From a virus: a DNA stretch of 54,899 nt. Positions 204-37,402 of the stretch are shown in pieces; the first letter of the stretch is position 1, and each line of letters begins with the position of its first letter. Below the pieces are notes generated by a model. That model ran no database searches and was not told where the DNA came from. It worked only from the letters and a program-made list of their open reading frames with translations. The stretch spans positions 1-54,899 of IMG/VR virus record IMGVR_UViG_3300049737_000029, one strand, 5' to 3'. The position numbers were made by a program, and so were the translations under genes.

Positions 204-3200
204 GTTACAGGTACAACTATTGCTAATGTTACCGATCCAACCAGTGCTCAAGATGCGGCTACAAAGAACTATGTAGATACTGCAGATGCACTAAAGCTTA
301 ACCTGTCTGGTGGAACTATGTCAGGTGCTATTGCTATGGGCGGTAGTAAAGTAACAGGTTTAGGTGCTCCAAGTGCTTCAACAGATGCCGCTACTAAGGG
401 ATATGTAGACACCGAGGTATCTGCTTTAGTTGACTCATCTCCTGATGCCCTAAACACTCTTAACGAGTTAGCTGCGGCAATCAATGACGATGCAAACTTC
501 TCAACTACTATTACTAATTCTATAGCTACTAAGTTACCCCTTGCAGGTGGAACACTAACTGGTGACATTGTAATGGGTACTAATGCTGTAACATCTACAG
601 CTAACCCTGCAACAAATGATGAGCTATCTCGTAAAGGTTATGTAGATGCACAAGATGCTACTAAGTTAAACTTATCAGGTGGCACTATGTCTGGTGCTAT
701 AGCTATGGGTACAAGTAAGATAACTGGACTAGGTGATCCTACTGCTAATCAAGATGGTGCTACTAAGAACTACGTTGACACAACTGCCTTACTAAAATCA
801 GGTGGTACTATGGCATCTGCTATAGCTATGGGTGGCAATAAGATTACTGGATTAGGTACTCCTACTGCTAATACCGATGCGGCTACAAAAACTTATGTTG
901 ATAGTATCGCAGGTTCTAATACAGCGGCGGCGGCTAGTGCTACTCAAGCGGCTACTTCAGCTACTAATGCAGCAACATCAGCTACAAACTCAGCTAACTC
1001 AGCAACAGCTGCGGCTACCAGTGCTACTAATGCCGCTAATTCTTATGATGACTTTGACGACAGATACTTAGGTGCTAAATCATCTGCCCCTTCAGTAGAC
1101 AATGACGGTGACGCTTTAATAGCAGGTGCATTGTATTTTAACACTACAAGTAACATTATGTTTGTTCGTAGTGGATCAGGTGGTTGGCAAGCGGCAGGTT
1201 CATCAGTTAATGGTACATCTGGTCGTAACACATATACAGCTACATCAGGACAGACTACATTCTCTGCAACATATGATGTAGGCTACGTAGATGTATATCT
1301 TAATGGTGTAAAACTTTTAGTTGGTACAGACGTAACAGCTACAAGTGGTTCTACTGTAGTACTAAGTGCAGGTGCTACTGCTGGTGATATTATTGACATC
1401 GTAGGTTATGGTACATTCCAACTTGCAGATCACTATAGTAAGACAGCGGCAGATGCTAGGTTCTTAGGTCTAGCTGGTGGCACTATGACAGGTGACATTA
1501 ATGGTAACGGCAATAAAGTTTTATTCGGTAACGTATATTCTCAATTATCAGACTTACCAAGTGCATCAACTTATCACGGTATGTTTGCTCATGTTCATGC
1601 AACAGGTAAAGGTTACTTCGCACATGCAGGTAACTGGATTCCATTAGCTAATGATACAGAAAAACTAAACTTATCTGGCGGTACTATGACAGGTAACTTA
1701 GACGTTGGTGGATCAGTTGAGTTTGATAGCTTATCTGGTACAGGCTCTGTGTCTATTACAAACATACTTGATGAAGATAACATGGCATCTAACAGTGCAA
1801 CAGCACTAGCCACACAACAGTCTATCAAAGCTTATACAGACACAGCTATTGCTAACCTTGTAGATAGCTCACCGGGTTCTCTTAATACACTTAATGAGTT
1901 AGCCGCAGCTTTAAACGATGATGCATCATTTAGTACTACTATAACAAACTCTATTGCTACTAAACTACCCCTAGCTGGTGGTACACTTACTGGAGGTTTA
2001 AATGTATCGTCAGGAAATGTTGGTATTGGGACGAGTTCTCCAGCGACACCATTAGCTATACATTCTGCATTGTCAGGTGGTGGTGCAATCGCTGAGTTTA
2101 GATCAACAGGAAATACAAGTGCCACTTTAGATATAAGAGCAGATGGTACTGGTGACTCACGCATATGGTTTGATTTAAACGGTGCAACCCCGTTTGCTAT
2201 AGGTGTCGATAATTCTGATGGTGACAAGTTCAAAATTAGCGGTAATGCTCAATTAGGAACTAATGACAGGCTAACAATAGATTCATCAGGCCGAGTTGGT
2301 ATTGGTTGTGCGCCTGTTCGTGTTTTAGATATTGCAACTACTACTGGTGGAACAATAATCCACCTTACAGATGATGCAACAGGACACACAGCTAACGATG
2401 GTGTAGACATTCAACAGGAAGGTACTCTATTTCAAATACTTAATAGAGAAGCTGGCGATATACGCTTTGGTACAAACAACACAGAACGTATGCGCATAGA
2501 CTCATCAGGCAACGTTGGTATTGGTACGAGTAATCCATTAGGTTATAAATTGTGGGTAGAAAACACATCTGAAGATTTACTAAAGTTACATAATTCAACA
2601 GACGGTTTAGACGCATTAATTTCATTCTCAAACCCCGGTGGTACTTTAGGTAGAATACAAGGAATAGATAATGGTGGTTTAGCGTTTGATGTAGGTAATA
2701 ATGCTGGAGGTGTTATTGGCAATGCAGTATCTATTGATAACTCAGGCCGTGTTGGTATTGGTACGAGTTCTCCTGATATGCCTTTAACCGTACAAGCTAA
2801 TAGTGGTGCAAATGCAATATCTATGCGTGGTAGAAGTGACGACTATTCAGAACTCTATGGCACTAGTAATGATGGTTCTACAAAGTATGCGTTTTTGCAA
2901 ACACATTCAGCGCAAACAAAATTATATACATTAGCTAGTACTCCACTGTTATTTGGTACAAACAGCTCAGAACGTATGCGCATCGACTCGTCAGGGCGAG
3001 TTGGTATAGCACAAGATACACCGGGAGATTTTAACACTGCTGCTGATGATTTAGTTATTGGTAATAGTGGTGGAGATTTTGGTATGACCATTAGAACTGG
3101 TACTGCTAGTAATGGTTCAATACATTTTGCTGATGGAACAACTGGAAATGCACCAAATAGAGGTATTATTACCTACGACCACTCTGATGACCATATGCAT

Positions 3201-3845
3201 TTTAGCACTTCAGCATCAGAACGTATGCGCATAGACTCAAATGGCTATGTTGTAATTGGCTCTACATTACAAGGCTCACAAAATGCTGTTACAATAGGTC
3301 AAGCAGGTTTTGTGCAAGCAAGACGAGCAAGTGGTGCGGCGGCTTTCTTTGATAGACTTACTAATGATGGCACTATTATACAACTCCGCAAAGGCGGGGC
3401 AGATGTAGGTAGTATTGCGGCTAACGGCGGTTCTATTATTGTAGGGTCTGGTAACACTGGGTTATACTTTGATGATGGTTCGGATAGGTTAATACCAGTA
3501 GACCCAGCATCAGCAAGCGGCAGGGACAATGCTGTTAATCTGGGTGGTAGTTCAGAAAGGTTCAAAGACGTATACGCTGTAAACTATTACGGCGATGGCT
3601 CTAACCTAACAGGTGTTGGTGGCAGTACAGCTTTTGGTGCTGTTGGTACTTATGGTCTTATTGGTGCTGGTGCTGGTAGTGGTAATTACACTGTTGGAGA
3701 AACAATAGCAGGTTCAAATCTACAAACAGCATATGCTGTTTATAATTTTGTATACGACACTATTACTGCGCAATCAGGAACTTGGCGTTGTATGGGTTAT
3801 GGGGGAACTGGCTACTATGGTACACTTTGGGTCAGAATATCTTAA
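1..3845 (+). CDS. Long tail fibre protein, C-terminal three-quarters (continues from 53853)
   Basis: The frame is open from base 3 and continues the gene that starts near 53853 at the other end of the window; joined, the product is about 1,562 residues. The sequence is Gly/Ser/Thr/Asn-rich and modular. It has short TGN(V/L)TGN repeats at the start, two copies of an LNTLNELAAA(I/L)NDDA module, and several (S/T)ERMRIDSSG and VGIGTSSP units typical of marine phage and cyanophage fibres. An alanine-rich coiled stretch lies near 920-1030. The C-terminal 100 residues are aromatic and Gly-rich and probably form the receptor-binding tip; I see no S74 chaperone peptidase motif. It is followed, after a GGAGG site, by a small fibre-assembly protein. 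Tail fibre is secure; the receptor is unknown. Confidence 0.85.
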   Translation, partial: IIGASSTAAITGTTITGSSLVGPLTGNVIGNITGNVTGNLTGNVTGNVTAGSGLSTFNNVTVNGTLDVTGTTIANVTDPTSAQDAATKNYVDTADALKLNLSGGTMSGAIAMGGSKVTGLGAPSASTDAATKGYVDTEVSALVDSSPDALNTLNELAAAINDDANFSTTITNSIATKLPLAGGTLTGDIVMGTNAVTSTANPATNDELSRKGYVDAQDATKLNLSGGTMSGAIAMGTSKITGLGDPTANQDGATKNYVDTTALLKSGGTMASAIAMGGNKITGLGTPTANTDAATKTYVDSIAGSNTAAAASATQAATSATNAATSATNSANSATAAATSATNAANSYDDFDDRYLGAKSSAPSVDNDGDALIAGALYFNTTSNIMFVRSGSGGWQAAGSSVNGTSGRNTYTATSGQTTFSATYDVGYVDVYLNGVKLLVGTDVTATSGSTVVLSAGATAGDIIDIVGYGTFQLADHYSKTAADARFLGLAGGTMTGDINGNGNKVLFGNVYSQLSDLPSASTYHGMFAHVHATGKGYFAHAGNWIPLANDTEKLNLSGGTMTGNLDVGGSVEFDSLSGTGSVSITNILDEDNMASNSATALATQQSIKAYTDTAIANLVDSSPGSLNTLNELAAALNDDASFSTTITNSIATKLPLAGGTLTGGLNVSSGNVGIGTSSPATPLAIHSALSGGGAIAEFRSTGNTSATLDIRADGTGDSRIWFDLNGATPFAIGVDNSDGDKFKISGNAQLGTNDRLTIDSSGRVGIGCAPVRVLDIATTTGGTIIHLTDDATGHTANDGVDIQQEGTLFQILNREAGDIRFGTNNTERMRIDSSGNVGIGTSNPLGYKLWVENTSEDLLKLHNSTDGLDALISFSNPGGTLGRIQGIDNGGLAFDVGNNAGGVIGNAVSIDNSGRVGIGTSSPDMPLTVQANSGANAISMRGRSDDYSELYGTSNDGSTKYAFLQTHSAQTKLYTLASTPLLFGTNSSERMRIDSSGRVGIAQDTPGDFNTAADDLVIGNSGGDFGMTIRTGTASNGSIHFADGTTGNAPNRGIITYDHSDDHMHFSTSASERMRIDSNGYVVIGSTLQGSQNAVTIGQAGFVQARRASGAAAFFDRLTNDGTIIQLRKGGADVGSIAANGGSIIVGSGNTGLYFDDGSDRLIPVDPASASGRDNAVNLGGSSERFKDVYAVNYYGDGSNLTGVGGSTAFGAVGTYGLIGAGAGSGNYTVGETIAGSNLQTAYAVYNFVYDTITAQSGTWRCMGYGGTGYYGTLWVRIS

Positions 3846-3866
3846 TAATAATAATAGGAGGCGTTA

Positions 3867-4286
3867 ATGCCAACAGTAACAATAACAGAAGTGCGTAACG
3901 CACAATCACTAAACGCAGAGAATACTGCATTTGAAGTAGAGATTAACCATCCAGAGTTTGATTGGATACCTTATCATTTAAACCCTGATGATACAGATAT
4001 GACTGTAGACAACAGCGTATTGCTTGGGCTTATTGGCTCAGACTATGCGGCTTATGTAGCACCTACTCAAGAAGAACTAGATGCAGGTTTAGCGGCAGGT
4101 CTTAGGGCGCAACGTGACCAGAAGTTAGTCGAAGAAGTAGACCCTATAGTAACTAACCCTCTACGTTGGGCTGAACTTACAGATGCTAAACAAGCAGAGT
4201 GGACACAGTACCGAACTGACTTGCTTAACTTACCAGCACAAGCAGGTTTCCCGAATACAGTAACATGGCCTACAAAGCCAGAATAA
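3867..4286 (+). CDS. Tail fibre assembly chaperone 1
   Basis: This 139-residue protein follows the long fibre gene with a strong AGGAGG ribosome site. The C-terminal half carries RDQKL..EVDPIVTNPLRW, then WTQYR and a closing NTVTWPTKP segment, the pattern of phage tail-fibre assembly proteins (Tfa/Phage_tail_APC type). These bind the fibre tip and help trimerisation. A paralogue with the same ending (DPIVSNALRW, NITWPTKP) lies at 6445, also directly after a fibre gene, so each fibre appears to have its own helper. The N-terminal half is not conserved between the two and probably gives fibre specificity. Confidence 0.7.
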   Translation: MPTVTITEVRNAQSLNAENTAFEVEINHPEFDWIPYHLNPDDTDMTVDNSVLLGLIGSDYAAYVAPTQEELDAGLAAGLRAQRDQKLVEEVDPIVTNPLRWAELTDAKQAEWTQYRTDLLNLPAQAGFPNTVTWPTKPE

Positions 4287-4297
4287 GGATATAAAAT

Positions 4298-6430
4298 ATG
4301 AGTAAGGCAAGAGACTTAGCAGATAGTGCACAAGAAATAAACATCTTAGATGGTAAGAGCTTCCTTGATGAGGATAATCTTGCTAGTGACTCTGCTACTG
4401 GCATTGCTAGTCAGCAGTCTATCAAAGCATATGTAGATGGTATCACTACAACTAACATCACTTCTACAGGTGCATTGAATAGTGGTAGCATAACGTCAGG
4501 CTTTGGTAACATAGACAATGGCTCATCTACTATAACAACTACAGGTGCTATCACTGGTGGTAGCTTTGTAATAGGTAGTGCTGATATTAATGAGAATGAC
4601 TTAGAGAGCATTGATGGTATTACAGCAGGTACAGTATCAGCATCTAAAGCTGTAGTAGTTAATACAAACAAAGATATAACAGGCTTCCGTAACATAACAG
4701 CTACAGGTACTATCAGTGGTTCACTTAGTGGTTCTCTATCATCTACTACTACAGCAACTACACAAGCTGAGTCTGATGATAGTACTAAAATAGCTACAAC
4801 AGCTTACGTTACAGATAAGATTACAACACTTATTGGTGGCGCACCAAGCACACTCAATGACTTGAATGAGTTAGCTGCGGCTATCAACGATGACGCTAAC
4901 TATAACTCTACACTTACAACAGCATTAGGCACTAAGCTACCAAAAGCTGGTGGCACTATGACAGGCGATGTCCTGTATAATAATAACGTCAAAGCTAAGT
5001 TCGGTGCTGGGTCTGACCTCCAGATTTATCATAATGGGTCTGATAGTTATATTCAAGATGAAGGAACTGGACGACTTAATATTAGAGGAAACGATGGCGT
5101 AAGGATACAAGCTACTGGTGGTTCTGAAAACATGGGAGTGTTTAACCAAAATGGCTCTGTTGATTTATATTATGATAACGCCAAGAAACTAGCCACAACA
5201 TCAACAGGCATACAGGTCACAGGTAATATAGCTAATGCTTCTGGCGACTTCACACTAGACGTTGCAGGAGATATTAACCTTGATGCTGATGGTTCAGCCA
5301 TCAATCTTAAAGATGGCGGTACACGCTTTGGAGCTTTATACAAAAGTAGCAATGACTTTTTAATATATTCTGCAATAAGTGATGGAGATATGAAACTTCA
5401 AGGTTTAGATGGTAGTTCTGTTATAACAGCCCTAAGACTTGATATGTCTGACGCTGGTACAGCTATATTCAATAGTAGAGTAGCAATAGCAAATGGTACG
5501 GCTAGTTTGCCTAGTTATACATTTAGCGGTGATACAAACACAGGAATGTTTAGACCAAACTCAGATAACTTAGGATTTTCTGTAGGTGGCACTCAAAGAG
5601 CATTTATTAGTGCTACTCAGTTTAATGTTAATACCAAAATTGTAGCTACAGAATTAGACATAAATGGTAATGCTGACATATCAGGAAACGTAACTGTAGC
5701 AGGTACAGTAGATGGACGTGATCTTGCGGCAGATGGTGTTAGATTAGATACAATGGCAACCAATGCTAACAACTATTCTCACCCAACAGGTAATGGTAAT
5801 AACCATATCCCTAGTGGCGGCTCTACAGACCAAATACTTAAATATGCATCTGCTGGCACTGCACAATGGGCAGACGCTAGTGGTGGCTCAAGAGTATTGT
5901 TAAGCAGGTCGGTTATGAACAACACTTCATCTTATGTTTTTACAGGAGTTGATAGCACTAAGTATGATAGTTACTATATTGAGTTTAATGGCATAGTCTG
6001 CACCCAAGACTCAAAAGATTTCTTAATGAAATTTAGTGACAACGGCGGTAGTTCTTACAAAGGCTATGGGGATGTACGAGGAACTCTCTTTTACCATAAG
6101 GGTGGCTCTCAGTTGAGCGACACTTGGAACGAAGATATGAGAATAAGTAGACAACAAGGCTTTACTACTTCAGGAAACTTTGGAGCTAATGTGAGTGGAT
6201 ATGTAATGATAATGAATGCACATGGTGGAAATACAGTAACCACCCAAGCGATGGGGTCTGCTACATATAGGGCATACAGCAATGAACAGGTAGTAACTTT
6301 GTATTCTTGCGGAACTGCTGAAGAGAGTTATTCAAGAAATATTTGGACTGATTGGAATGCATTCAAGCTACAGTTTGATAATGGTAATATGCAAAAAGGT
6401 ACAATTTCAGCTTTTGGTATACTCAAATAA
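4298..6430 (+). CDS. Second tail fibre protein
   Basis: This 710-residue modular fibre is related to the first. It shares the DEDN(L/M)AS.SAT..QQSIKAY segment near residue 24 and the LNELAAAINDDA followed by AGG(T)MTGD module near residue 190. A middle segment with DLQIYHNGSDSYI resembles fibre modules common in marine phages. The C-terminal 190 residues (after GGSRVLLSR) are non-repetitive, rich in Tyr, Phe and Asn, and are probably the receptor-binding head. An AGGA site precedes the start. It is sandwiched between two chaperone-like genes. It may form a shorter or alternative fibre on the same tail. Confidence 0.8.
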   Translation: MSKARDLADSAQEINILDGKSFLDEDNLASDSATGIASQQSIKAYVDGITTTNITSTGALNSGSITSGFGNIDNGSSTITTTGAITGGSFVIGSADINENDLESIDGITAGTVSASKAVVVNTNKDITGFRNITATGTISGSLSGSLSSTTTATTQAESDDSTKIATTAYVTDKITTLIGGAPSTLNDLNELAAAINDDANYNSTLTTALGTKLPKAGGTMTGDVLYNNNVKAKFGAGSDLQIYHNGSDSYIQDEGTGRLNIRGNDGVRIQATGGSENMGVFNQNGSVDLYYDNAKKLATTSTGIQVTGNIANASGDFTLDVAGDINLDADGSAINLKDGGTRFGALYKSSNDFLIYSAISDGDMKLQGLDGSSVITALRLDMSDAGTAIFNSRVAIANGTASLPSYTFSGDTNTGMFRPNSDNLGFSVGGTQRAFISATQFNVNTKIVATELDINGNADISGNVTVAGTVDGRDLAADGVRLDTMATNANNYSHPTGNGNNHIPSGGSTDQILKYASAGTAQWADASGGSRVLLSRSVMNNTSSYVFTGVDSTKYDSYYIEFNGIVCTQDSKDFLMKFSDNGGSSYKGYGDVRGTLFYHKGGSQLSDTWNEDMRISRQQGFTTSGNFGANVSGYVMIMNAHGGNTVTTQAMGSATYRAYSNEQVVTLYSCGTAEESYSRNIWTDWNAFKLQFDNGNMQKGTISAFGILK

Positions 6431-6444
6431 AAAAGGTAACGACG

Positions 6445-6735
6445 ATGTCAAATCACAAAATAGTAGACGGAATAACAATACAGCTTACTGAAGAAGAAGA
6501 AATCCAACTAGCGGCAGAACGGGCGGCACAAGAGGCTAAAGCTCCAGAATACGCAAGAAAAGTACGTGATGACTTACTCTTATCAGATGTAGACCCTATT
6601 GTATCTAATGCTTTACGTTGGAACGAAATGTCAGAAGATAAACGAACGGAGTGGACTAATTATCGTCAAGCTCTGTTAGATATAGAAGACTTAGATGGCT
6701 ATCCAGATAATATAACATGGCCTACTAAACCATGA
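6445..6735 (+). CDS. Tail fibre assembly chaperone 2
   Basis: This 96-residue protein has a C-terminal half that matches the chaperone at 3867 (DPIVSNALRWNEM, WTNYRQALLD, NITWPTKP), while its N-terminal half is shorter and acidic (a run of Glu around residue 16). It directly follows the second fibre gene with a weak AAAGG site. Its stop overlaps the next start as ATGA, so translation is coupled to the membrane protein that follows. It is probably the helper for the second fibre. Confidence 0.65.
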   Translation: MSNHKIVDGITIQLTEEEEIQLAAERAAQEAKAPEYARKVRDDLLLSDVDPIVSNALRWNEMSEDKRTEWTNYRQALLDIEDLDGYPDNITWPTKP

Positions 6736-6998
6736 CTGAGAGTTGGCATCTTTCTAAGTCAGTACCAGTTACGTTAATCGTAGCTATCGTACTACAAACT
6801 ATATCACTTGTATGGTATGTGTCTTCATTAGACTCTTCCGTCAAAAATAATGCTCGTGATTTAGTTCGCCAAGAAACTCGTATAAATACACTAGAGAAGA
6901 CAGTACAAATGCAAGCTGTCTCTCTAGGACGTATTGATGAAAACATTAAAGCTATTCGTAACCTAGTAGAGAGAATGGCAGAACAAGATAATAAATGA
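6732..6998 (+). CDS. Small membrane protein with coiled coil
   Basis: This 88-residue protein has one transmembrane segment near residues 11-30 (VPVTLIVAIVLQTISLVWYV) followed by a predicted coiled coil (RINTLEKTVQMQ..., LGRIDENIKAIRNLVERM). It starts within the previous stop (ATGA) and its own stop overlaps the next start in the same way, so it belongs to a translationally coupled run. This architecture occurs in phage membrane proteins near lysis or tail genes, for example spanin- or holin-like accessory proteins, but I do not recognise the family. Confidence 0.6.
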   Translation: MTESWHLSKSVPVTLIVAIVLQTISLVWYVSSLDSSVKNNARDLVRQETRINTLEKTVQMQAVSLGRIDENIKAIRNLVERMAEQDNK

Positions 6999-7549
6999 AA
7001 CTCTTACTTATACTATTTACCCTACTAATCGGTAGTATTGCACATGCCGATGATGATGTTATAAAGACTGACACTAATAGTACTATAACTTCAAATGGTT
7101 CTATGGATACTACAATCAATAGCCCACCACCATCGGCTATATCTCCACAGATAAGTGCAAGTAACTCTGACTTATGTACTGTAGGTGTAGCAGGGGCAGT
7201 ACAGACACAGATACTAGGTATCTCAGCAGGTCGTACAGTACGTGACATGAACTGTGAGAAGCTCAAGAATGCTAAGACTATGTATGACATGGGCATGAAG
7301 GTAGCCGCAGTATCAGTAATGTGTCAAGACGAAAGAGTGTTTGATGCTATGATGAATGCAGGTACACCATGCCCTAAAGATGGATTAGTTGGTGATCAAG
7401 CTAGACTAGCATGGGATATGGAAGCAGTTAAAGATGAGATCGAACGAGATCAAAACGATGTAATCAGAAAGATGTTTGATGAGAACAGTGAAACTAAGAT
7501 TGGCTTGGGTGTTATCTTTAGTACTCTTGCCTTCTTACTCCTACTCTGA
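6995..7549 (+). CDS. Exported protein with signal peptide and C-terminal membrane segment
   Basis: This 184-residue protein has a signal peptide (MKLLLILFTLLIGSIAHA, cleavage after AHA), then a Ser/Thr/Asn-rich linker. The middle domain holds four cysteines at about residues 61, 88, 110 and 126, followed by a charged helix (RLAWDMEAVKDEIERDQND). The C-terminus is hydrophobic (IGLGVIFSTLAFLLLL). It is therefore predicted to be periplasmic with a tail anchor. The last 71 nt also encode, in another frame, the signal peptide of the next gene. I do not recognise the function. Similar exported proteins sit between fibre and internal-virion genes in other marine podoviruses, as far as I recall. Confidence 0.65.
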   Translation: MKLLLILFTLLIGSIAHADDDVIKTDTNSTITSNGSMDTTINSPPPSAISPQISASNSDLCTVGVAGAVQTQILGISAGRTVRDMNCEKLKNAKTMYDMGMKVAAVSVMCQDERVFDAMMNAGTPCPKDGLVGDQARLAWDMEAVKDEIERDQNDVIRKMFDENSETKIGLGVIFSTLAFLLLL

Positions 7550-8348
7550 ACCATATACGTATGGAGCTACAGGTAATGCGGCATCAGGTGCATTAGGTTG
7601 GTCTATGGATTCTATCTTACCTAGTATCGGTGGTGTAGATATAAATGGATTACTCTATAGGTACACTACAGTAAAAGACCCAGAAGCAGATATGAAGGTA
7701 CATGTAGGCAATCACAACGCAAGTGGAGATGGTTATACATTTAGAGAGACTGATGATTGGTCTGGCGTACCCGGAAATACTATTGTTAAGTCTTTCCCTC
7801 TTTCAAATATACCAGCATCTAAATGGGGTACTGGGTTTGTTGAAGTTGAGGGTGAAGGAACTGTTAAAGATGCTGTTGTAATATACAACTACAGGTTAGA
7901 CAAATGCTATGATCCACAGTCTGACCCATCTTGTGCAGGTTATGTAAAGCCTATGCCAGTATTACCAGAGGTTATAGTCTATGATGCACTAGAAGATGAT
8001 GCAGTTGTAGATACACTAGAAGCTGAAGAGTTTCAGTATGACGAAGATGGTAAACTTATACTAGATGAAGAAGAGGAAGAAGAGGAGACACGCATAGAGA
8101 TGGGATTAACTGCCTCTGCTAATGCTCTTACACTATTCAAGGCACAAAATCAAAGCGATATAATATTAGCCTTAAACAAACAAACTAATATCAATATGTA
8201 TTACAATGCAAAGATAAACGGCGGTACACTAAACGATGCGGCTGGATTAAAAGATGGAACTATACCCGACAACAAGAAAGCTTTACGAAACAATTTAGCC
8301 CAACAAGTACTACATGAAAAAATGGTAGACATGCAGTATAACAAATGA
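7479..8348 (+). CDS. Exported acidic protein, unknown function
   Basis: The ATG at 7479 gives MRTVKLRLAWVLSLVLLPSYSYS, a good signal peptide cleaved before EPY. The product is 289 residues. The N-terminal part is Gly/Tyr/Asp-rich (YTYGATGNAASGALGW), there is one close cysteine pair (KCYDPQSDPSC), and a very acidic block (EFQYDEDGKLILDEEEEEEE) near residue 200 separates it from a helical C-terminal region. No SD is evident because the start lies inside the upstream gene, so translation is probably coupled. The function is unknown. Together with its neighbours it forms a run of secreted proteins. Confidence 0.65.
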   Translation: MRTVKLRLAWVLSLVLLPSYSYSEPYTYGATGNAASGALGWSMDSILPSIGGVDINGLLYRYTTVKDPEADMKVHVGNHNASGDGYTFRETDDWSGVPGNTIVKSFPLSNIPASKWGTGFVEVEGEGTVKDAVVIYNYRLDKCYDPQSDPSCAGYVKPMPVLPEVIVYDALEDDAVVDTLEAEEFQYDEDGKLILDEEEEEEETRIEMGLTASANALTLFKAQNQSDIILALNKQTNINMYYNAKINGGTLNDAAGLKDGTIPDNKKALRNNLAQQVLHEKMVDMQYNK

Positions 8349-31930: not shown

Positions 31931-33034
31931 TCATAACCCTTTCAATATATGTGCTATCACGTCTACAGTCCACCCATTGCCGAGCATCTTGTAACGCTGT
32001 GTGTTTGATACACCTTCAGTGTACCCATCTGGTATTGTTTGTAAGCGTTCACATTCTAATGGTGTTAGCTTACGCCAAGACAAGTTCTCAATCAAGATAC
32101 TGTCCTTAGTTACTGTGGTTAAACAATTAGTTTTATCATCTTCTCTGACCTCAATCATCTGTTTGATAGGTATAGTTGTATCATAATCTTTACGAGTACC
32201 ATTAGCATCTAGTCTTCGACCAACCATACGCCCACCCTTCACCAATACTTTAGGCTCTAAGTTACCACCACTTGAGGCACACAGACTAGGTGCTTTACCT
32301 TCGGCTGCATACACCCTTCGTACATATCCGTGACCTTTTAGATCAGCGTCACCTACATGACACATCTGATCATCACTAAACACCAACTGTCTACGATGCT
32401 TCTCGAAATATGATTTGAGATTACCACCCTTGAAATAATTAGCATCAAGACAATGTGACTTAGTTCTGTCAGTCAAACCATCCTCAAGTATATCTTTCAA
32501 TACTATACCTTTGTCTTCTGGTTGTTGAATACCTTCGATGTTAGTCCAATAGAAACGTTTCCTATTCTGTGCAGACACTAGCGCACTGTTGATTAGGTAC
32601 TTGTTTACATTAGGCAATGCTTGCTCAGTGTGGTACGTGATATACTCCTCAAAAGCATTCGACATTCTAACATTCTCCATTAGGTACTTAGCATTAGGGT
32701 TATGCTCTAGCACATGTTGCATGATGTCTAGTACTACCCAAAACAATTGACCTCGTGGATCACGATCACCTTGCTGTTGACCTGCAACTGACCATGCCTG
32801 ACACGGGAAACCTGCTGTGACTAGATCAACTTGTGACCAATCAATATCCCATGATCTCCACTCAGTCATATCACCTACCTGTATAGTGTCAGGATAATTT
32901 TTCTGTGTAATTTTAATAGCATGTGGGTCTATCTCACTAGCTATATAAGTATCAGCACGTAAGCCTATCTTATCACCTGCTATCTGACCACCTGATAAGC
33001 CATCACATAAGGATAGTTGTGTTCTAATCTTCAT
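31931..33034 (-). CDS. C5-cytosine DNA methyltransferase
   Basis: This 367-residue enzyme transfers a methyl group from SAM to C5 of cytosine. Motif I is LSLCDGLSGGQIA, motif IV GFPCQAWSVAG (nucleophile Cys78), motif VI MENVR (Glu120), motif VIII QNRKRFYW, and the late motifs are ERLQTIPDGYTEG and RYKMLGNGW (motif IX/X region). The CDGLSGGQ opening recalls DNMT3-like phage enzymes. No restriction enzyme gene is adjacent, so it is probably a solitary protective or regulatory methylase. A strong AAAGGA site precedes it. Confidence 0.92.
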   Translation of the reverse strand: MKIRTQLSLCDGLSGGQIAGDKIGLRADTYIASEIDPHAIKITQKNYPDTIQVGDMTEWRSWDIDWSQVDLVTAGFPCQAWSVAGQQQGDRDPRGQLFWVVLDIMQHVLEHNPNAKYLMENVRMSNAFEEYITYHTEQALPNVNKYLINSALVSAQNRKRFYWTNIEGIQQPEDKGIVLKDILEDGLTDRTKSHCLDANYFKGGNLKSYFEKHRRQLVFSDDQMCHVGDADLKGHGYVRRVYAAEGKAPSLCASSGGNLEPKVLVKGGRMVGRRLDANGTRKDYDTTIPIKQMIEVREDDKTNCLTTVTKDSILIENLSWRKLTPLECERLQTIPDGYTEGVSNTQRYKMLGNGWTVDVIAHILKGL

Positions 33035-33332
33035 TGTTATATTCCTTTACAAATTGTTGTAGCTCTTCAAAGCTATCAGTACTACATAGCCATGCATGAT
33101 CATCTGACTCACCATTGTAGGTGCTTGCCAATTGAGCTATGAAACGTGTAAACATACCCCAATCTGTACCCCAAATGTTTTTTGCATCAGCCTCACGCAC
33201 ATTTGCATCATGGCTGCCCATCCATATGTGTAGACCATTTACTTGGTAGCTTGGTAGTTCATCATGATGATGGCTTGTACACTTCCATTCTTTTGGTATA
33301 TCTAAATCAACTAAGTATGTATCCCAATGCAT
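33024..33332 (-). CDS. Hypothetical protein
   Basis: This 102-residue protein follows GAAAGGA, itself just downstream of an AGTCCAA-type palindrome. It is His/Trp-rich at the start (MHWDTYLVDLDIPKEWKCTS, HHHDELP) with VNGLHIWMGSHDANV and a helical acidic end. It overlaps the methyltransferase start by 11 nt, so the two are coupled. Family unknown. Confidence 0.55.
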   Translation of the reverse strand: MHWDTYLVDLDIPKEWKCTSHHHDELPSYQVNGLHIWMGSHDANVREADAKNIWGTDWGMFTRFIAQLASTYNGESDDHAWLCSTDSFEELQQFVKEYNNED

Positions 33333-33353: not shown

Positions 33354-33369
33354 AGTCCAATGTTGGACT
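33354..33369. repeat. AGTCCAA-N2-TTGGACT palindrome, copy 1
   Basis: A perfect 7-bp arm palindrome with centre TG, in the gap between two minus-strand genes. It ends six bases before the GAAAGG ribosome site of the gene at 33024. It is a member of a seven-copy family confined to 33.3-37.4 kb. Confidence 0.9.
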
Positions 33370-33605
33370 TATTGAATTGATGGTGGGGTTTCACTTATGT
33401 ATCCCCATGATGAGTATACCTCATGTACTCTCTCACTACAATCGACAAACTCAACTCGTGAATCAGGTTTGCTACGCATCATCATATGAATAGCAAACTC
33501 CGAAGCTGTACGCCAATCACTGACAGAAGGATACGTATCATCTAACTTAATGATAGTATTCTCACTGTCAATGGCTAACGTGACTTCATATGCCATAACA
33601 GGCAT
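33369..33605 (-). CDS. Small hypothetical protein
   Basis: This 78-residue protein has GAGGAAGAG about six bases before the ATG. The sequence MAYEVTLAIDSENTIIKLDD starts a beta-rich domain, followed by WRTASEFAIHMMMRSKPDSRVEFVD. It is acidic and soluble with no motif I can name. The stop touches palindrome copy 1. Confidence 0.5.
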   Translation of the reverse strand: MPVMAYEVTLAIDSENTIIKLDDTYPSVSDWRTASEFAIHMMMRSKPDSRVEFVDCSERVHEVYSSWGYISETPPSIQ

Positions 33606-33608
33606 ACG

Positions 33609-33848
33609 TTACTCTTCCTCAGTTTTGAATGCAAACCTCAGTGAATACCAAGCTGACTCAATCTTACCTATGTCTGACATGTATAGATCATGCGCTTCTG
33701 TAGCCATAGAATACGTGTCACGCAAAACCTTTTGAGCTTCTTCGATAGCTTCACGCTGTTCCTTAGACATACTAGCCAATAACTTTTTATTTACCTTATA
33801 CCTAGCCATACGTTCAGCTTTCCACTGTGCTTGTGTTTTATTTGACAT
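33609..33848 (-). CDS. Small basic helical protein
   Basis: The start at 33848 is chosen for the GGAGGCG site; 14 further codons are open upstream. The product is 79 residues and mostly helical: QAQWKAERMARYKVNKKLLAS, EQREAIEEAQKVLRDTYSMA, and LRFAFKTEEE. It could be a DNA-binding or anti-host protein. Family unknown. Confidence 0.5.
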   Translation of the reverse strand: MSNKTQAQWKAERMARYKVNKKLLASMSKEQREAIEEAQKVLRDTYSMATEAHDLYMSDIGKIESAWYSLRFAFKTEEE

Positions 33849-33853
33849 TGTTA

Positions 33854-34180
33854 TTACGCCTCCAATTGTTGTTTGATATCTGCCAACCAAGTGACAAGCA
33901 TCTTTTGTTGTGTCTTCAATGTAGCACGCTTAGTAGTGTACTTGCTACCTATTAAACCTACAGATTGTAGTACTTGTACCCTATATACAATACGATTAGG
34001 GTATTCGTTTAAGTCAGATGCAATCTGTTTTATAGTAGACACTCTCCAGTTCTGTAGAATGTAATCATCAACAGATGCATAGTTGTAGGTATGAATACCT
34101 GCTCTTGACATGTGTGCTGTGTGCTTCACATATAGTTCTGGGTTAGTGTTTTTTACTAGTGGTTTTGAAATAGTAGTCAT
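33854..34180 (-). CDS. Putative HTH regulator
   Basis: This 108-residue protein contains a likely helix-turn-helix: STIKQIASDLNEYPNRIVYR followed by a VQVLQSVGLIG helix, in the position of a winged-helix or MarR-like reader, then a basic TTKRATLKTQQKML segment. It has an AAGGAG site. It is the only obvious DNA-binding candidate inside the palindrome-rich early region and might be the protein that reads those sites; this is inference. Confidence 0.5.
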   Translation of the reverse strand: MTTISKPLVKNTNPELYVKHTAHMSRAGIHTYNYASVDDYILQNWRVSTIKQIASDLNEYPNRIVYRVQVLQSVGLIGSKYTTKRATLKTQQKMLVTWLADIKQQLEA

Positions 34181-34194
34181 TTTATGTTAGCTCC

Positions 34195-34356
34195 TTATGC
34201 TATACGTTTTGGTTTATAATCTGTTATGCCTCTTTGCATATTAGTTTTAATCTTACGTGCTGTTGAACGCTCACGCTTCCAATCATCACGCTTAGGCTTC
34301 TTCTTCTTAGTAGTTAGTCCAATGTTGGACTTAGTGAACTTAATAAAGTTCTTCAT
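34195..34356 (-). CDS. Small very basic protein (53 residues), palindrome inside ORF
   Basis: The frame from ATG 34356 gives a highly basic product, MKNFIKFTKSNIGLTTKKKK, then PKRDDWKRERSTARKI and an RGITDYKPKRIA end. Codons 9-14 contain palindrome copy 2. The only good ribosome site (GGGAGG) serves an ATG 14 nt further upstream, in another frame, that encodes only ten residues (MNAVYYEELY), so translation might depend on re-initiation. A frameshift in the data is an alternative. It is moderately likely to be real. Confidence 0.45.
   Translation of the reverse strand: MKNFIKFTKSNIGLTTKKKKPKRDDWKRERSTARKIKTNMQRGITDYKPKRIA
34316..34331. repeat. AGTCCAA-N2-TTGGACT palindrome, copy 2
   Basis: A perfect copy (centre TG) of the early-region palindrome, here about 25-40 nt into a short basic ORF rather than in a gap. 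Confidence 0.85.
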
Positions 34357-34375
34357 AGTATACTGCATTCATATG

Positions 34376-34996
34376 TTACCTCCCGTATGTTATACATTCT
34401 ACATGAAATTTAGATACGACATTGCCTGTAGTAAGCTTACGATTAGCTTTGTTACCTGCAACATACTCGCACCATGTGTTCCACCAATACTTTGAACCAG
34501 AACGTTGAGTAAGTACTATGTACTCTTCAACCTTTCGACGTGCAGTCTCTGGCTTCATAGCCTTTGGTGGTGTCTTAACCAAGTTAGGATTGATACCTAG
34601 TCGCTTGACATTGTGTCCATCAATACAAGCCACATTGAAACCTAAACATTGAGCAAGGAAAGATGCCTTGACCATACCCAAGTTAGGTACTTGCATAAAT
34701 AACTCAACAACATCAGCACAAGCTTCAACACTGTTGTAACCTTTTGCATCTGCAATCTTGTACATCTCACTACGTAGGTAGTCACCATGCTTGATAAGGT
34801 ACTTGTAACCTTCATCTTTTTTGCCCCATAAGCAATTGGCTTTCACACCATCTATGCTTACTTTTTCCATGCTACCTTTTACTGTGGATAAACCTGCTTG
34901 TATCGTTAGCAATACAAACAAGCCAGTGTTTACAAATGCATCTGTACCACCCCAACGGACAAACGATTTGATTTCTCTTACATCACGACTATACAT
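34376..34996 (-). CDS. HhH-type DNA-binding / glycosylase-like protein
   Basis: The start is set at ATG 34996, overlapping the upstream stop (TAATG) with GAGGATA before it; ten more codons are open. The 206-residue product contains VPNLGMVKASFLAQCLGFNV followed by CIDGHNVKRLGI, a helix-hairpin-helix layout as in the HhH-GPD DNA glycosylase superfamily. The motif is preceded by a helical domain and followed by YWWNTWCEYV. It may bind or repair DNA. The catalytic aspartate is not certain (Asp in IDGHN is a candidate). Confidence 0.6.
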   Translation of the reverse strand: MYSRDVREIKSFVRWGGTDAFVNTGLFVLLTIQAGLSTVKGSMEKVSIDGVKANCLWGKKDEGYKYLIKHGDYLRSEMYKIADAKGYNSVEACADVVELFMQVPNLGMVKASFLAQCLGFNVACIDGHNVKRLGINPNLVKTPPKAMKPETARRKVEEYIVLTQRSGSKYWWNTWCEYVAGNKANRKLTTGNVVSKFHVECITYGR

Positions 34997-35244
34997 TACT
35001 GTGTATCCTCTGCACATTCTGGGCATACATCAATCATGCCATCAGATTCTTCTTTTATAAAAGCGCAATCACCACAATCGTTTTGATTGTCTGCAATAAA
35101 ATTATTTATCATCATGATTGAAACTATTGCTTCAACTGTATCACCTTTACCTTTAGGTGCTTCAATAAACTTTATTACGTTCTTTATCAATGCAGGTATC
35201 TGATCAACTGAATCAGGAGTGTTGAACATGTTATTCTTTTTCAT
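34996..35244 (-). CDS. Small protein with Cys pairs
   Basis: This 82-residue protein follows AAAAAGGA. A helical middle (ALIKNVIKFIEAPKGKGDTV) precedes two CxxC pairs (CGDC and CPEC) that may bind one zinc ion: NDCGDCAFIKEESDGMIDVC is the start of that unit. The mRNA leader contains palindrome copy 3 eight bases before its ribosome site. Function unknown. Confidence 0.6.
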   Translation of the reverse strand: MKKNNMFNTPDSVDQIPALIKNVIKFIEAPKGKGDTVEAIVSIMMINNFIADNQNDCGDCAFIKEESDGMIDVCPECAEDTQ

Positions 35245-35267
35245 TGTATGTAATCCTTTTTATGTGA

Positions 35268-35283
35268 AGTCCAACGTTGGACT
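35268..35283. repeat. AGTCCAACGTTGGACT palindrome, copy 3
   Basis: The only copy that is a perfect 16-bp palindrome (centre CG). It lies eight bases before the AAAGGA site of the gene at 34996, about 40 nt downstream of a promoter-like module. Confidence 0.9.
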
Positions 35284-35299
35284 AGTTCCGATGCTTAAC

Positions 35300-35352
35300 A
35301 ACAAATCAGATAACCAACCTGTTGTCAAGCACTATTTTACTACGTAGTAGTA
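35300..35352 (-). promoter_or_regulatory. Leftward promoter-like module A with TACTACGTAGTA
   Basis: Minus strand: TACTACGTAGTA (35349-35338), then AAATAG, then a TTGACA -35 (35328-35323). The -10 at 17-bp spacing (TTTGTT) is weak. The block from TACTAC to TTGAC recurs at 37345-37372 with only the same three spacer bases changed. A perfect palindrome beside a good -35 and a poor -10 is what an activator-dependent or repressed promoter looks like. Confidence 0.5.
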
Positions 35353-35355
35353 GTG

Positions 35356-35553
35356 TTATGATTTGCTGTAGGTTTTCCAACCTGAGTCACTCACAAACTC
35401 TACTACATTATTTTTGTTGTCATACACTACATCGACAACAGGTGAAGCACACTTACGCTGTAGCTCAATACGTGCTCGCAGCCGAGCTATACGATCCGCA
35501 CGACTAGGCTTTGGCATGGTGTAATGTGTGTTTGTATGCAATTTAAATTTCAT
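35356..35553 (-). CDS. Small basic protein
   Basis: This 65-residue protein has a GAAAGGA site. The N-terminal half is Arg-rich and helical (MPKPSRADRIARLRARIELQ), the second half beta-like (VVDVVYDNKNNVVEFVSDSG). ATG 35517 (PKPSRAD) is an alternative start without a good site. The basic helix suggests nucleic acid binding. It ends just upstream of promoter module A. Confidence 0.5.
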   Translation of the reverse strand: MKFKLHTNTHYTMPKPSRADRIARLRARIELQRKCASPVVDVVYDNKNNVVEFVSDSGWKTYSKS

Positions 35554-35574
35554 ATAAATCCTTTCACAATATTA

Positions 35575-35590
35575 AGTCCAACATTGGACT
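35575..35590. repeat. AGTCCAA-N2-TTGGACT palindrome, copy 4
   Basis: Perfect arms with centre CA on the plus strand. It is nine bases before the GAAAGG site of the gene at 35356 and directly after the stop of the preceding gene. Confidence 0.9.
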
Positions 35591-35593
35591 AAG

Positions 35594-35926
35594 TTAAAAA
35601 TTACCAAACTGTATGCCTTCAGCTATAAGCGTATCATCATTCTTGATATTACCATTACTCATATCTATGACATAGTGTCCATTATCCCAATCTTCTTTGT
35701 TCTTTTGTACACCTACAGACAAACCACCCTCCACATAGTTACATATGTGAGCTATTAGTCTAGCAGTAGCATAGTTAACATCAGACTTACGCATGTTAGA
35801 TGATGCACCTTTTACTAGTTCAGTCACAGTCTCAGGGCTACCTGACCAGTGTACATATATGTAGCAAGGTGTTTCTTGCCAAGAATAGTCTTGATTTATT
35901 ACTTCAAGTGTCGCTCGATTACCCAT
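35594..35926 (-). CDS. Conserved phage/plasmid protein (MGNRA type)
   Basis: The start at 35926 overlaps the upstream stop (TAATG); five more codons are open. The product is 110 residues. MGNRATLEVI, YIYVHWSGSPETV, YATARLIAHICNYVEGGLSVGV and DNGHYVIDMS match a small family common in phages and plasmids whose role is unknown. It is soluble, with an alpha/beta layout. Confidence 0.65.
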   Translation of the reverse strand: MGNRATLEVINQDYSWQETPCYIYVHWSGSPETVTELVKGASSNMRKSDVNYATARLIAHICNYVEGGLSVGVQKNKEDWDNGHYVIDMSNGNIKNDDTLIAEGIQFGNF

Positions 35927-36153
35927 TATACAATACCCCAACTTATAACTGCATCACCATTGTCTGGATTTACCCAAACATCATAGCCATACTCACGCAA
36001 TTGTGCCACATCTACAGAATTAGTTTTGTGCGATGAAACACTCAACGCATTTCTGCCTTCGCTTATAGCAAGTTCTAATACGTCTTTAAGATACTTAGTT
36101 CTTTTTTCAAACGCAATTGTTACAGCCTTATCAGCATTGATTACTTTAATCAT
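35926..36153 (-). CDS. Small hypothetical protein
   Basis: This 75-residue protein follows GAAAGGA, with palindrome copy 5 eight bases further upstream. It starts MIKVINADKAVTIAFEKRTK, then a helix DVLELAISEGRNALSVSS, then YDVWVNPDNGDAVISWGIV. The alpha/beta pattern resembles other short early phage proteins. The stop overlaps the next start. Function unknown. Confidence 0.55.
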   Translation of the reverse strand: MIKVINADKAVTIAFEKRTKYLKDVLELAISEGRNALSVSSHKTNSVDVAQLREYGYDVWVNPDNGDAVISWGIV

Positions 36154-36175
36154 TTTAATATCCTTTCAAGATATA

Positions 36176-36191
36176 AGTCCAACATTGGACT
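36176..36191. repeat. AGTCCAA-N2-TTGGACT palindrome, copy 5
   Basis: Perfect arms, centre CA on the plus strand. It overlaps the TAG stop of the gene at 36190 and lies eight bases before the GAAAGG site of the gene at 35926. Confidence 0.9.
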
Positions 36192-36384
36192 AGTTAAACA
36201 TTTCGTCCCACTCTGTGGGTGTGATACCTGTAGCAATGAACTCACGTTCTTGTGCAGATATGTTAGGCATAGCATTTTGGATAAGCTCACCCTGCCAGTA
36301 CCATGCATTAATCTGCGTTGGTGTTACATCAATATCCATTGCACTTATAGTGCCAGAATAAATTGATTTACGTTCAATTAACAT
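36190..36384 (-). CDS. Conserved small phage protein
   Basis: This 64-residue protein belongs to a very common but unnamed phage family: MLIERKSIYSGTISAMDIDV, TPTQINAWYWQGELIQNAMP, then EREFIATGITPTEWDEMF. The closing REF..TGIT..EWD box is its hallmark. It is preceded by AAAGG and starts 5 bp after the stop of the small membrane protein. Role unknown. Confidence 0.75.
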   Translation of the reverse strand: MLIERKSIYSGTISAMDIDVTPTQINAWYWQGELIQNAMPNISAQEREFIATGITPTEWDEMFN

Positions 36385-36388
36385 AACA

Positions 36389-36523
36389 TTAACCTTTCAA
36401 TAAAAATGGTAGAAATAAAGCACTACCCAAAATAAAACCCATCATTGCACCCATGACTGTGTGCTTGAATGCTTCACGTAGCTGTTCTTGACGCTTACGT
36501 TGCCTTGATGTTCTGTATGCCAT
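36389..36523 (-). CDS. Small membrane protein (44 residues)
   Basis: The gene starts at ATG 36523; an ATG five bases upstream runs only 11 codons. The basic N-terminus is MAYRTSRQRKRQEQLREAFK, followed by one apolar span (TVMGAMMGFILGSALFLPFLL). GAAAGGA lies upstream behind palindrome copy 6. A basic N-terminus and a single span suggest an inner-membrane protein, perhaps an early host-takeover factor. Confidence 0.55.
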   Translation of the reverse strand: MAYRTSRQRKRQEQLREAFKHTVMGAMMGFILGSALFLPFLLKG

Positions 36524-36545
36524 TTGACATTTCCTTTCATATGTA

Positions 36546-36561
36546 AGTCCAACATTGGACT
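36546..36561. repeat. AGTCCAA-N2-TTGGACT palindrome, copy 6
   Basis: Perfect arms, centre CA on the plus strand. It is seven bases before the GAAAGGA of the 44-residue membrane protein and just downstream of a long hairpin. Confidence 0.9.
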
Positions 36562-36566
36562 AGTTA

Positions 36567-36619
36567 ACTTATAAAGTTACACCTAGCTAGGGAGAGAGAG
36601 CCAGATGTAACCTATAAGT
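36567..36619 (-). promoter_or_regulatory. Long intergenic hairpin
   Basis: The arms ACTTATA-AA-GTTACA (36567-36581) and TGTAAC-C-TATAAGT (36606-36619) pair over 13 bp with a small internal bulge around a 24-nt purine-rich loop containing GGGAGAGAGAG. It lies just after the stop of the gene at 36629 on the leftward transcript. There is no U-tract, so an mRNA-processing or stabilising element is more likely than a terminator. Confidence 0.55.
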
Positions 36620-36628
36620 AAACTTATA

Positions 36629-37270
36629 TTATGCTACCTTTTTTTCATCTGCTAATTCTTCTGGTGTAAGCATTTCTGCTTCAAGCATAAGCATCTCTGC
36701 AATGTCCATGATGTTCACATCACTAGCCTTACATATGGCAAGCAACTCTTTAAAGATTGTCTCTTTAGTTGCAGGTTTAGCTTCGCTAGTAGCCTCAGTT
36801 GGTGTTGCACTAGCTTTGCTAGATTTACCTGTTGACGCTTTATCATCAGTAGATGATTCTTTTTTCTTATTAGCTTTCTTCATTGCACTTTGCAATGCTG
36901 TAAGTGATGTGAAACCTTTCTTGCTTTTAGCAATAAACTCACGACATTCAACTTCGTTTTCAACGAACCATAATGCCTCACTACGTCTACGTTTGTCAAC
37001 TATATGCATTTGACATTCTCTCAATCTCCAAGTTGGTATTCTACCACCTTCAAACTCTGCTTTTAGAGTTCTCATTTCATTGCCCAACCTAGTATCCAAA
37101 CCTACTACAGGTTTAGTATTCCTAGTTAGACGCTTGGAATCATGACCTACTTCTAGTAGGTATAATCTAGCTATGTCTGCACCTTCAAGTTCAAGAGTAG
37201 GTAAGACAACTTTTTGTGTATCAGTGTTAGCGTTGTTAGCGAATGTAGGGTTTGGCGTTGTTCTTGTCAT
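36629..37270 (-). CDS. First early protein of the leftward arm, unknown function
   Basis: ATG 37270 is chosen for the AAAGGAAA site; 27 more codons are open upstream. The product is 213 residues. The N-terminal domain reads LPTLELEGADIARLYLLEVG and AEFEGGRIPTWRLRECQMHI; basic and helical parts follow, then a Lys/Ser/Ala/Thr-rich linker (about 125-165) and an acidic helical end (IMDIAEMLMLEAEMLTPEEL). It is the gene nearest the control region and so is presumably the first expressed. No family is recognised; the layout would suit a host-interaction protein. Confidence 0.6.
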   Translation of the reverse strand: MTRTTPNPTFANNANTDTQKVVLPTLELEGADIARLYLLEVGHDSKRLTRNTKPVVGLDTRLGNEMRTLKAEFEGGRIPTWRLRECQMHIVDKRRRSEALWFVENEVECREFIAKSKKGFTSLTALQSAMKKANKKKESSTDDKASTGKSSKASATPTEATSEAKPATKETIFKELLAICKASDVNIMDIAEMLMLEAEMLTPEELADEKKVA

Positions 37271-37319
37271 AATAAATTTCCTTTTTGTTTGTGGCTTGTT
37301 TGCCGTTTCGATGCAATCA

Positions 37320-37372
37320 GTTAGATCAGAAAAATCCGATGGTGTCAACACCTATTTTACTACGTAGTAGTA
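37320..37372 (-). promoter_or_regulatory. Leftward promoter-like module B with TACTACGTAGTA
   Basis: Minus strand: TACTACGTAGTA (37369-37358), AAATAG, a TTGACA -35 (37348-37343), a 17-bp spacer and TCTAAC (37325-37320) as a 4/6 -10. It is the twin of the module at 35300-35352. It is placed to drive the first leftward gene at 37270. Confidence 0.6.
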
Positions 37373-37386
37373 TATGGAGCAAATTA

Positions 37387-37402
37387 AGTCCAATGTGGGA
37401 CT
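37387..37402. repeat. Degenerate AGTCCAA/TTGGACT palindrome, copy 7
   Basis: AGTCCAATGTGGGACT differs by one base (T to G) from the consensus. It sits upstream of leftward promoter module B rather than in front of a ribosome site. Confidence 0.75.

Follow-up and report, generated by a model that had tools for sequence, protein, structure and literature searches.

The IMG/VR virus record IMGVR_UViG_3300049737_000029, analysed here over its whole length of 54,899 nucleotides (nt) and referred to as the window, carries in one block of small minus-strand genes a set of 16-base-pair (bp) palindromes, AGTCCAANNTTGGACT, together with a minus-strand gene (36632–37270; a longer GTG-started frame reaches 37351) that encodes an unannotated protein of 213 amino acids (aa). 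The 213-aa protein is very probably the cognate reader of the palindromes. The palindromes are assigned to it because the two occur together in related phages, and because residues of one predicted helix covary with an operator base; at the level of sequence comparison, this pairing and its specificity code are strongly supported. Changes in the helix appear to go hand in hand with changes in the palindrome, and this points to a phage gene-control system that seems to be undescribed. The best explanation of the whole, and a reasonably likely one, is that the protein is a dimeric DNA-binding early regulator with stoperator-like sites.

The palindromes and the accompanying protein

The window contains six exact copies of AGTCCAANNTTGGACT and one copy with one mismatch, all within 33354–37402. 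With up to one mismatch allowed, the seven matches compare with a mean of 0.01 in shuffled sequence of 54,899 bases, and none of 100 shuffles reached seven. With up to three mismatches one extra place appears (13224, three mismatches), and the resulting eight matches compare with a mean of 2.82 and were reached by 2 of 100 shuffles. An earlier note on this DNA had located the copies at 33354, 34316, 35268, 35575, 36176 and 36546 (exact) and 37387 (one mismatch) and had found none elsewhere; all seven coordinates proved correct, and no other copy within one mismatch exists in the window.

The window belongs to an HMO-2011-type phage, a group of phages abundant in the ocean. Helicase identity is 89.7% with Roseobacter phage CRP-345, 77.5% with CRP-1 and 71.4% with Puniceispirillum phage HMO-2011. 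An exact pattern scan of IMG/VR returned at least 119 stretches, many with single matches that are perhaps due to chance and others with clusters, and the pairing was assessed in 20 palindrome-cluster loci and 10 isolate loci. The 36632–37270 protein is found in 17 of the 20 cluster loci. As for the other three, one (L028) continues the contig of a locus that has the protein (L098), and two (L072 and L109) do not extend to its position. Among the isolates it is present in 2 of 10, CRP-345 and CRP-1, which are the two that carry the palindromes. CRP-3, placed in another subgroup, matches neither the 213-aa protein nor the core palindrome.

That one protein might serve all of the sites was also proposed earlier, and such a regulon is strongly supported. 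The binder then put forward, a helix-turn-helix (HTH) protein encoded at 33854, is unsupported, and the 36632–37270 protein, which the note had not linked to the palindromes, is favoured in its place. At an expect value (E) of 1e-4 the HTH protein is found in 8 of the 30 loci, i.e. six loci of the window's clade, CRP-345 and CRP-1, and it was not found in L002, L020, L031, L042, L050 and L102, all of which have palindromes and extend well beyond the position where it would lie.

Profile searches gave 127 distinct homologues of the 213-aa protein, with distinctness judged by the last 150 residues (the last 100 in a later set); their loci are mostly IMG/VR fragments. The core palindrome was matched in 124 of these 127 loci, and the other three carry a variant that was found by a blind search, i.e. 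a search for any repeated palindrome in loci where the pattern matched nothing. A chance-level count or a lack of conservation in relatives had been named beforehand as what would refute the idea of a regulon, and the outcome was otherwise. Among whole records, 4–7 core sites, integrase-gene copies included, are present in 15 of 15 that have a close homologue, three of which were first obtained through the motif itself, compared with 0 of 8 others. One of these eight is HMO-2011. Its gp74 is remotely homologous to the 213-aa protein (E 3.4e-18), and its operator is a variant one. In the early region of HMO-2011 the blind search turned up five copies of AGTCCGACAGCGGACT, one of them inverted, around and after the gp74 gene, and there are no further copies with up to two mismatches in HMO-2011 1–8300 and 30000–55282. 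The remaining seven records have no match at E 10.

An AlphaFold2 model of the protein has a helical core (approximately residues 57–139), a flexible linker and a C-terminal helical part, and the blocks within residues 61–140 have predicted local distance difference test (pLDDT) values of 82–94. Searches of Pfam, PHROGs, NCBIfam and the PDB gave no significant match to the regulator, and the 11 Pfam families listed for 14 members at an E of 1 or less (best E 0.01) include no XRE/HTH_3-type family. Foldseek comparison with the PDB gave no match at E 0.001 or less with either the full model or the core alone, and second looks reached at best Z 3.3 and 2.4. A viral model, S4S2E1, does match the regulator (E 1.7e-5 over 205 residues); gp74 is equally long and may be the same protein.

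Helix residues and operator base 6

The predicted recognition helix is encoded by codons 123–139 (36854–36904, minus strand). Three of its residues, 124, 128 and 131, covary with operator base 6/11, and in the AlphaFold2 model these (i, i+4, i+7) lie on one face of the helix. In some phages the sites are AGTCCGATGTCGGACT-like instead, with G at base 6, and are termed here G-type, in contrast to the A-type sites of the window. When the majority of sites per locus is taken, A6 accompanies Thr124 in 95 of 95 loci in which sites are present, and Ser124 with Lys128 goes with G6 in 18 of 20 loci, the other two being mixed; Ser124 with Arg128 goes with A in three of seven loci and is mixed in four. 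Counted by site, 476 of 488 sites are A..T where the protein has Thr, and 83 of 91 are G..C where it has Ser and Lys. A scan of alignment columns for the A/G state, from which six mixed-state loci and three loci without a pattern match were left out of the 127 and in which two more lack residue 124, scored residue 124 at 0.83, residue 131 at 0.77, residue 154 at 0.57 and residue 128 at 0.52. Column 154 is where relatives carry the in-gene site itself.

The association is also seen across independent lineages. The site state switches at least 13 times on a tree built without about residues 116–132, and among nine independent pairs the helix residue changes together with the site in 7–8 and oppositely in none (p 0.008–0.016). 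Three other proteins served as controls; their best columns scored 0.20, 0.38 and 0.48, compared with 0.85, 0.74 and 0.74 for residue 124 in the same loci. A further case was provided by the blind search. L317 (Thr124) has five copies of ACCCCAACGTTGGGGC, and L330 (Ser124, Lys128), whose protein is 94% identical, has five copies of ACCCCGATGTCGGGGC, so that the operators of this near-isogenic natural pair differ at base 6 in all five copies. A third locus, L333 (Thr124), has four ACCCCAATGTTGGGGC-like sites. Residue 93 is Asp or Ser in L317, L330 and L333 (two lineages) alone of the 127, being Lys or Arg in 123 and a gap in one, and from the variant sites in these loci it appears that residue 93 may read bases 2–3.

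These observations bear on the idea that no dedicated binder exists, the sites being selfish or duplicated leader cassettes whose link with the protein reflects only shared ancestry. The sites do share a leader context, and L180 and L267 each have one foreign-type operator among native ones, which fits cassettes that spread. The repeated switches of site state, with the helix residue moving the same way and never the opposite way in the independent pairs, and the all-copy difference between the nearly identical L317 and L330 proteins are what such cassettes would not be expected to give. The cassette idea is already disfavoured, and we regard it as highly improbable. L180 and L267 look like recipients of a gene cassette that came in from a phage of different specificity.

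Two further scans yielded 21 new distinct proteins, and all 12 that have an operator and a scorable Thr or Ser at residue 124 agree with the code: four Thr with A, three Ser-Lys with G, two Ser-Arg with mixed sites and three divergent Ser-Lys proteins (SALLKA) with G. In the sites of the SALLKA proteins the centre is three bases long (AGTCCGA-TTG-TCGGACA); L381 shows, in addition, TT for GT and some irregular copies. No operator was seen in L404, for which another contig that shares the protein end, L405, was used; it has six copies. Unscored were L413, L416, L417, L426 and L495, where the helix was not caught by the expression used, and the HMO-2011-like L351, L352 and L353, which have Lys at 124. 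Also unscored is L373, in which no operator was found and five GAGACAAAGTCTC-like inverted repeats (L373:5054–5443) lie at the end of the divergent homologue's own gene. The contigs of L373, L404 and L416 stop within 300 nt of the gene and do not cover its downstream region.

Some observations count against the code. In a primase control one column scored 0.80, above residue 124 (0.67), but there were only four G-type loci among 29. At least one off-rule A/G site is present in 10 of the 115 Thr or Ser-Lys loci with sites, and base 6 or 11 is C or G in eight upstream-type sites of Thr loci. The Ser-Arg expectation, A or mixed, is a loose one. Exceptions in L168 and L304 are an unswitched upstream site, and those in L224 and L232 have the letters of a copy inside the integrase gene. 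This copy, TGTCCAAGGTTGGACG, is found in CRP-345 (L124:7078) and CRP-1 (L125:6867) and was considered as an operator. In the G-type loci L224 and L232, however, a look-alike with identical letters lies 6.3–6.8 kb downstream of the regulator and stays A-type, and it is therefore treated as a coding coincidence. The outer base of the site (purine or pyrimidine class) was also compared with protein residues; this comparison is confounded by a deep clade split and no claim is made.

Placement of the sites and the level of action

Among the 127 loci, a core site lies upstream of the regulator gene in 104 and inside it in 100, and downstream sites are present in 120. The upstream site is approximately 80–330 nt before the start in most of 26 loci examined. 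Translated in the relatives examined, the in-gene site gives SNVG within the linker, and with G at base 6 SDVG; neither upstream nor in-gene sites adjoin start codons in the loci examined. Downstream sites have a different setting. Of 374 such sites, 65% are within 45 nt of a start codon with a ribosome site, compared with 16% of random positions, and in gaps of at least 80 nt, 132 of 152 sites lie 10–29 nt before the next start codon. Of 381 downstream sites 239 are intergenic and 142 are inside predicted genes (36% of downstream sites inside a predicted gene, as compared with 79% of random positions). The asymmetry of sites is restricted to the outer, centre and some base-6 positions of the 16-bp palindrome; asymmetric downstream sites have one orientation, along transcription, by 127 to 6. 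For upstream sites the total is 21 to 21, to which the purine class contributes 14 to 5 and the pyrimidine class 7 to 16. Nearly all sites of a whole record are in the early block. The block is termed early from its place and the phage type, and this timing is presumed.

In the window the upstream operator (37387–37402, minus strand), which reads AGTCCCACATTGGACT and has one degenerate half-site, precedes the regulator gene. As the earlier note described, five copies sit 6–9 nt before the GAAAGG or AAAAGG of a minus-strand gene. The first of these (36546–36561) is in the leader of the 36389–36523 gene, between its ribosome site and a stretch directly upstream (36562–36640, minus strand) that holds a long leader hairpin (predicted −26.9 kcal/mol). 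The copy at 36176–36191 overlaps the stop codon of 36190–36384 ahead of the ribosome site of 35926–36153, and that at 33354–33369 overlaps the stop codon of 33369–33605 ahead of the ribosome site of 33024–33332; both overlaps had been seen before. The copies at 35575–35590 and 35268–35283 precede the ribosome sites of 35356–35553 and 34996–35244, respectively. One copy (34316–34331) is inside a short open reading frame (ORF), as stated previously; this is a 57-aa basic ORF (34195–34368), and CRP-345 (L124 2131) and CRP-1 (L125 2227) have a site at the homologous in-gene position. All are on the minus strand.

Based on these placements and on the code, a mechanism can be proposed in which a dimer of the 213-aa protein binds the 16-bp site (AGTCCAACATTGGACT), with one recognition helix (residues 123–139) per half-site. 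Residue 124, with 128 and 131, would read base 6, and residue 93 may help with bases 2–3. Made early and accumulating, the regulator would occupy the sites upstream of and within its own gene, thus probably being an autorepressor, as well as those in the leaders of the small early genes. The occupied sites would block elongation in the manner of stoperators and close the early operon. In a lysogen the 213-aa protein could be the immunity repressor. The palindromes probably act at the level of DNA. This is favoured by the dimer-type 16-bp palindrome, the helix-face code, the sites upstream of and inside the regulator gene, the often non-pairing outer bases and the inverted copy in HMO-2011.

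The position of most intergenic sites 10–29 nt before a start codon leaves room for a role in RNA. In leaders the protein might recognize the palindrome in its RNA form, the hairpin AGUCCA-ANNU-UGGACU, and control the access of ribosomes to several early genes, i.e. a translational operator, which we consider unlikely. The nearness of downstream sites to ribosome sites and starts is what such an operator predicts. The leaders fit as well: many relatives have, in order, a long hairpin, the palindrome, a C-GGA-G mini-hairpin and the start, and the mini-hairpin (stem of at least 3) is in 57 of 171 distinct site-linked leaders compared with 8 of 655 others. Of 270 leader predictions, 216 have the palindrome folded on itself, and all eight mixed pairs of non-redundant transcribed sites are G..T, which pairs as G-U, with no A..C among them. 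The upstream and in-gene sites, being away from starts in the loci examined, are in contrast not accounted for by a translational operator. Among non-redundant downstream sites the outer bases are the non-pairing A..C or C..A in 127 and G..T or T..G in 6, with pairing A..T in 65 and T..A in 17. Within the main set the letters of the stem are constant, with 596 sites exact and 17 differing at one position, and variation is seen in the central dinucleotide; a protein that reads a hairpin loop would be expected to leave the opposite pattern, and in the inverted copy among the five of HMO-2011 the loop ACAG would become CUGU.

A combination of the two is also conceivable, though rather doubtful: a new family of phage regulators reading two forms of the palindrome, in which the site upstream of and within the protein's own gene is a DNA operator and the site near ribosome sites is an RNA hairpin, so that one protein would shut early transcription and tune translation. 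If true, a single protein with an evolvable one-helix code would act on both transcription and translation of small early genes.

The leaders show further features. The mini-hairpin presents the GGA of the ribosome site on stems that change (e.g. L196:7857–7961; L031:10217–10321, minus strand); the window leaders have the sequence GAAAGG or AAAAGG and no mini-hairpin. The palindrome was also considered as an Rfam RNA. There was no gathering-level match in four relatives, and one match in the window block was at chance level.

Partition, looping or bridging was weighed as well. Here the protein would bridge or spread between sites hundreds of bp apart and would fold or segregate phage DNA rather than control early genes. 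In keeping with this are the spacing of sites (quartiles 370, 675 and 878 bp), their nearness to the GC-skew turn at about 37 kb and a structured element that, under a strict pattern, separates the upstream site from the gene in 35 of 127 loci. Fold comparison also gave a viral ParB/Sulfiredoxin model as a weak match that is not significant (E 0.57). But bridging does not call for downstream sites that are oriented along transcription and close to gene starts, and the neighbouring proteins submitted to Pfam, PHROGs and PADLOC gave no hit named as a partition family. Such a function seems very doubtful.

The structured element is a conserved stretch of approximately 110 nt (GAGTTT..ACTTC-hairpin-TGCAGT..GAAACG.CA.G.GCAG.GGAT), for example at L149:6771–6892, L240:6728–6844 and L346:6788–6901. 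It has changes on both sides in 6 of 15 predicted pairs and no Rfam match at the gathering score in four loci scanned. It is possibly a structured leader, a small RNA or an origin.

Several points weigh against a dimeric DNA-binding regulator with stoperator-like sites. A pure DNA operator need not show the 10–29 nt placement before starts, and the self-folding of the palindrome and the G-U bias of mixed pairs, given above, belong here too. No known DNA-binding fold stood out for the regulator domain in PDB sequence and fold comparisons, which by itself proves nothing. Relatives of the regulator in bacterial genomes were found in none of 107 pattern stretches, and there is thus no prophage that would support lysogeny. 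Promoter-like sequence (score of at least 10) is found upstream of 18 of 239 downstream sites (7.5%, at scattered distances) compared with 2.4% in shuffles, and local promoters are possible for some of these sites. It should be pointed out, lastly, that we only infer the choice of DNA over RNA, dimerization, binding, repression rather than activation, early timing and a lysogenic role.

Sites as elements of local promoters, close to the transcription start site, were considered as a general explanation and set aside: promoter-like sequence is in excess neither at upstream sites (0 of 78; shuffles 0.5%) nor at in-gene sites (1 of 66; shuffles 0.8%), and the excess at downstream sites is modest.

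Known systems and neighbouring features

The nearest known systems are the stoperators of L5 and the SAS/ESAS elements of cluster K, and neither corresponds in full. In the cluster A mycobacteriophages L5 and TipsytheTRex one repressor acts at sites in short intergenic spaces and at promoters; these are 13-bp asymmetric sites, more than 20 per genome, bound by a two-domain monomer as seen in the TipsytheTRex structure (PMC9283540; PMC6550527). The palindromes resemble them in being multiple, in occupying short intergenic spaces of an operon, in following transcription downstream, and in having a consensus that differs between phages together with the regulator. Reversal of an L5 stoperator is reported to abolish repression (PMC9283540), and the orientation bias of downstream sites therefore fits stoperators. 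The palindromes differ from the L5 sites in being 16-bp palindromes and in number, 4–7 per whole record in the 15 records. As to homology with the L5 clade, there was no significant PDB sequence or fold match and no phage repressor among the few weak PDB matches listed, an absence that is not proof.

SAS is a 13-bp consensus, GGGATAGGAGCCC, and ESAS are 17-bp imperfect repeats with a 4–13-bp spacer in the vast majority; their function is given as unknown (PMC3203893; PMC12699233). Both they and the palindromes present an inverted repeat just before the ribosome site or start of a subset of genes, and both vary between phages. The palindromes are without a fixed 13-bp ribosome-site repeat, as the stems of the mini-hairpins vary and only a third of site-linked leaders (57 of 171) have one; in addition, a binder is proposed here, and sites are also inside genes and upstream of the regulator gene. 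Unlike operator triplets of the lambda type, the sites are spread along one operon and not clustered only at divergent promoters. The phiC31 repressor is known for many palindromic, conserved inverted repeats in the early region, and may be a further parallel.

In the available portions of three papers on these phages (PMC6918029; PMC9038755; PMC8528129), ‘repressor’ and ‘palindrom’ have 0 occurrences. One of them reports integration of CRP-3 into a tRNA-Met site (PMC6918029). The present comparisons yield from natural variation a candidate early regulator, its operators and a putative specificity code, i.e. residues 124, 128 and 131 with base 6 and perhaps 93 with bases 2–3. From the code, uncultured ocean phages would be expected to fall into immunity groups, and the system is compact enough for study of how a regulator and its entire operator set may change specificity jointly.

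With respect to neighbouring genes, an integrase, a primase and a cytosine methyltransferase are recognizable in the window. Ten proteins (nine small ones of the palindrome block and the 240-aa frame of the regulator) had no Pfam match, and a PHROGs search with ten palindrome-block proteins gave one weak match only.

A second palindrome, TACTACGTAGTA, followed by a TTGACA promoter-like stretch, lies before the regulator gene (37358–37369, minus strand), and there is a second exact copy at 35338–35349. Both copies have TTGACA and similar sequence downstream on the minus strand. With up to two mismatches TACTACGTAGTA occurs six times, which is not above the chance mean of 4.84. The earlier note had placed one AGTCCAANNTTGGACT copy at a promoter; the copy at 37387 is indeed upstream of a promoter-like stretch, but a simple promoter scan picked neither this stretch nor that near 35340. 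The latter also folds as a strong hairpin, and hence may not be a promoter.

The gene for the cytosine-5 methyltransferase (31931–33034) adjoins the palindrome block. The two central bases of the sites are in most cases CG, TG or CA, the pattern that cytosine deamination would leave, and a link with the methyltransferase would be conjectural.

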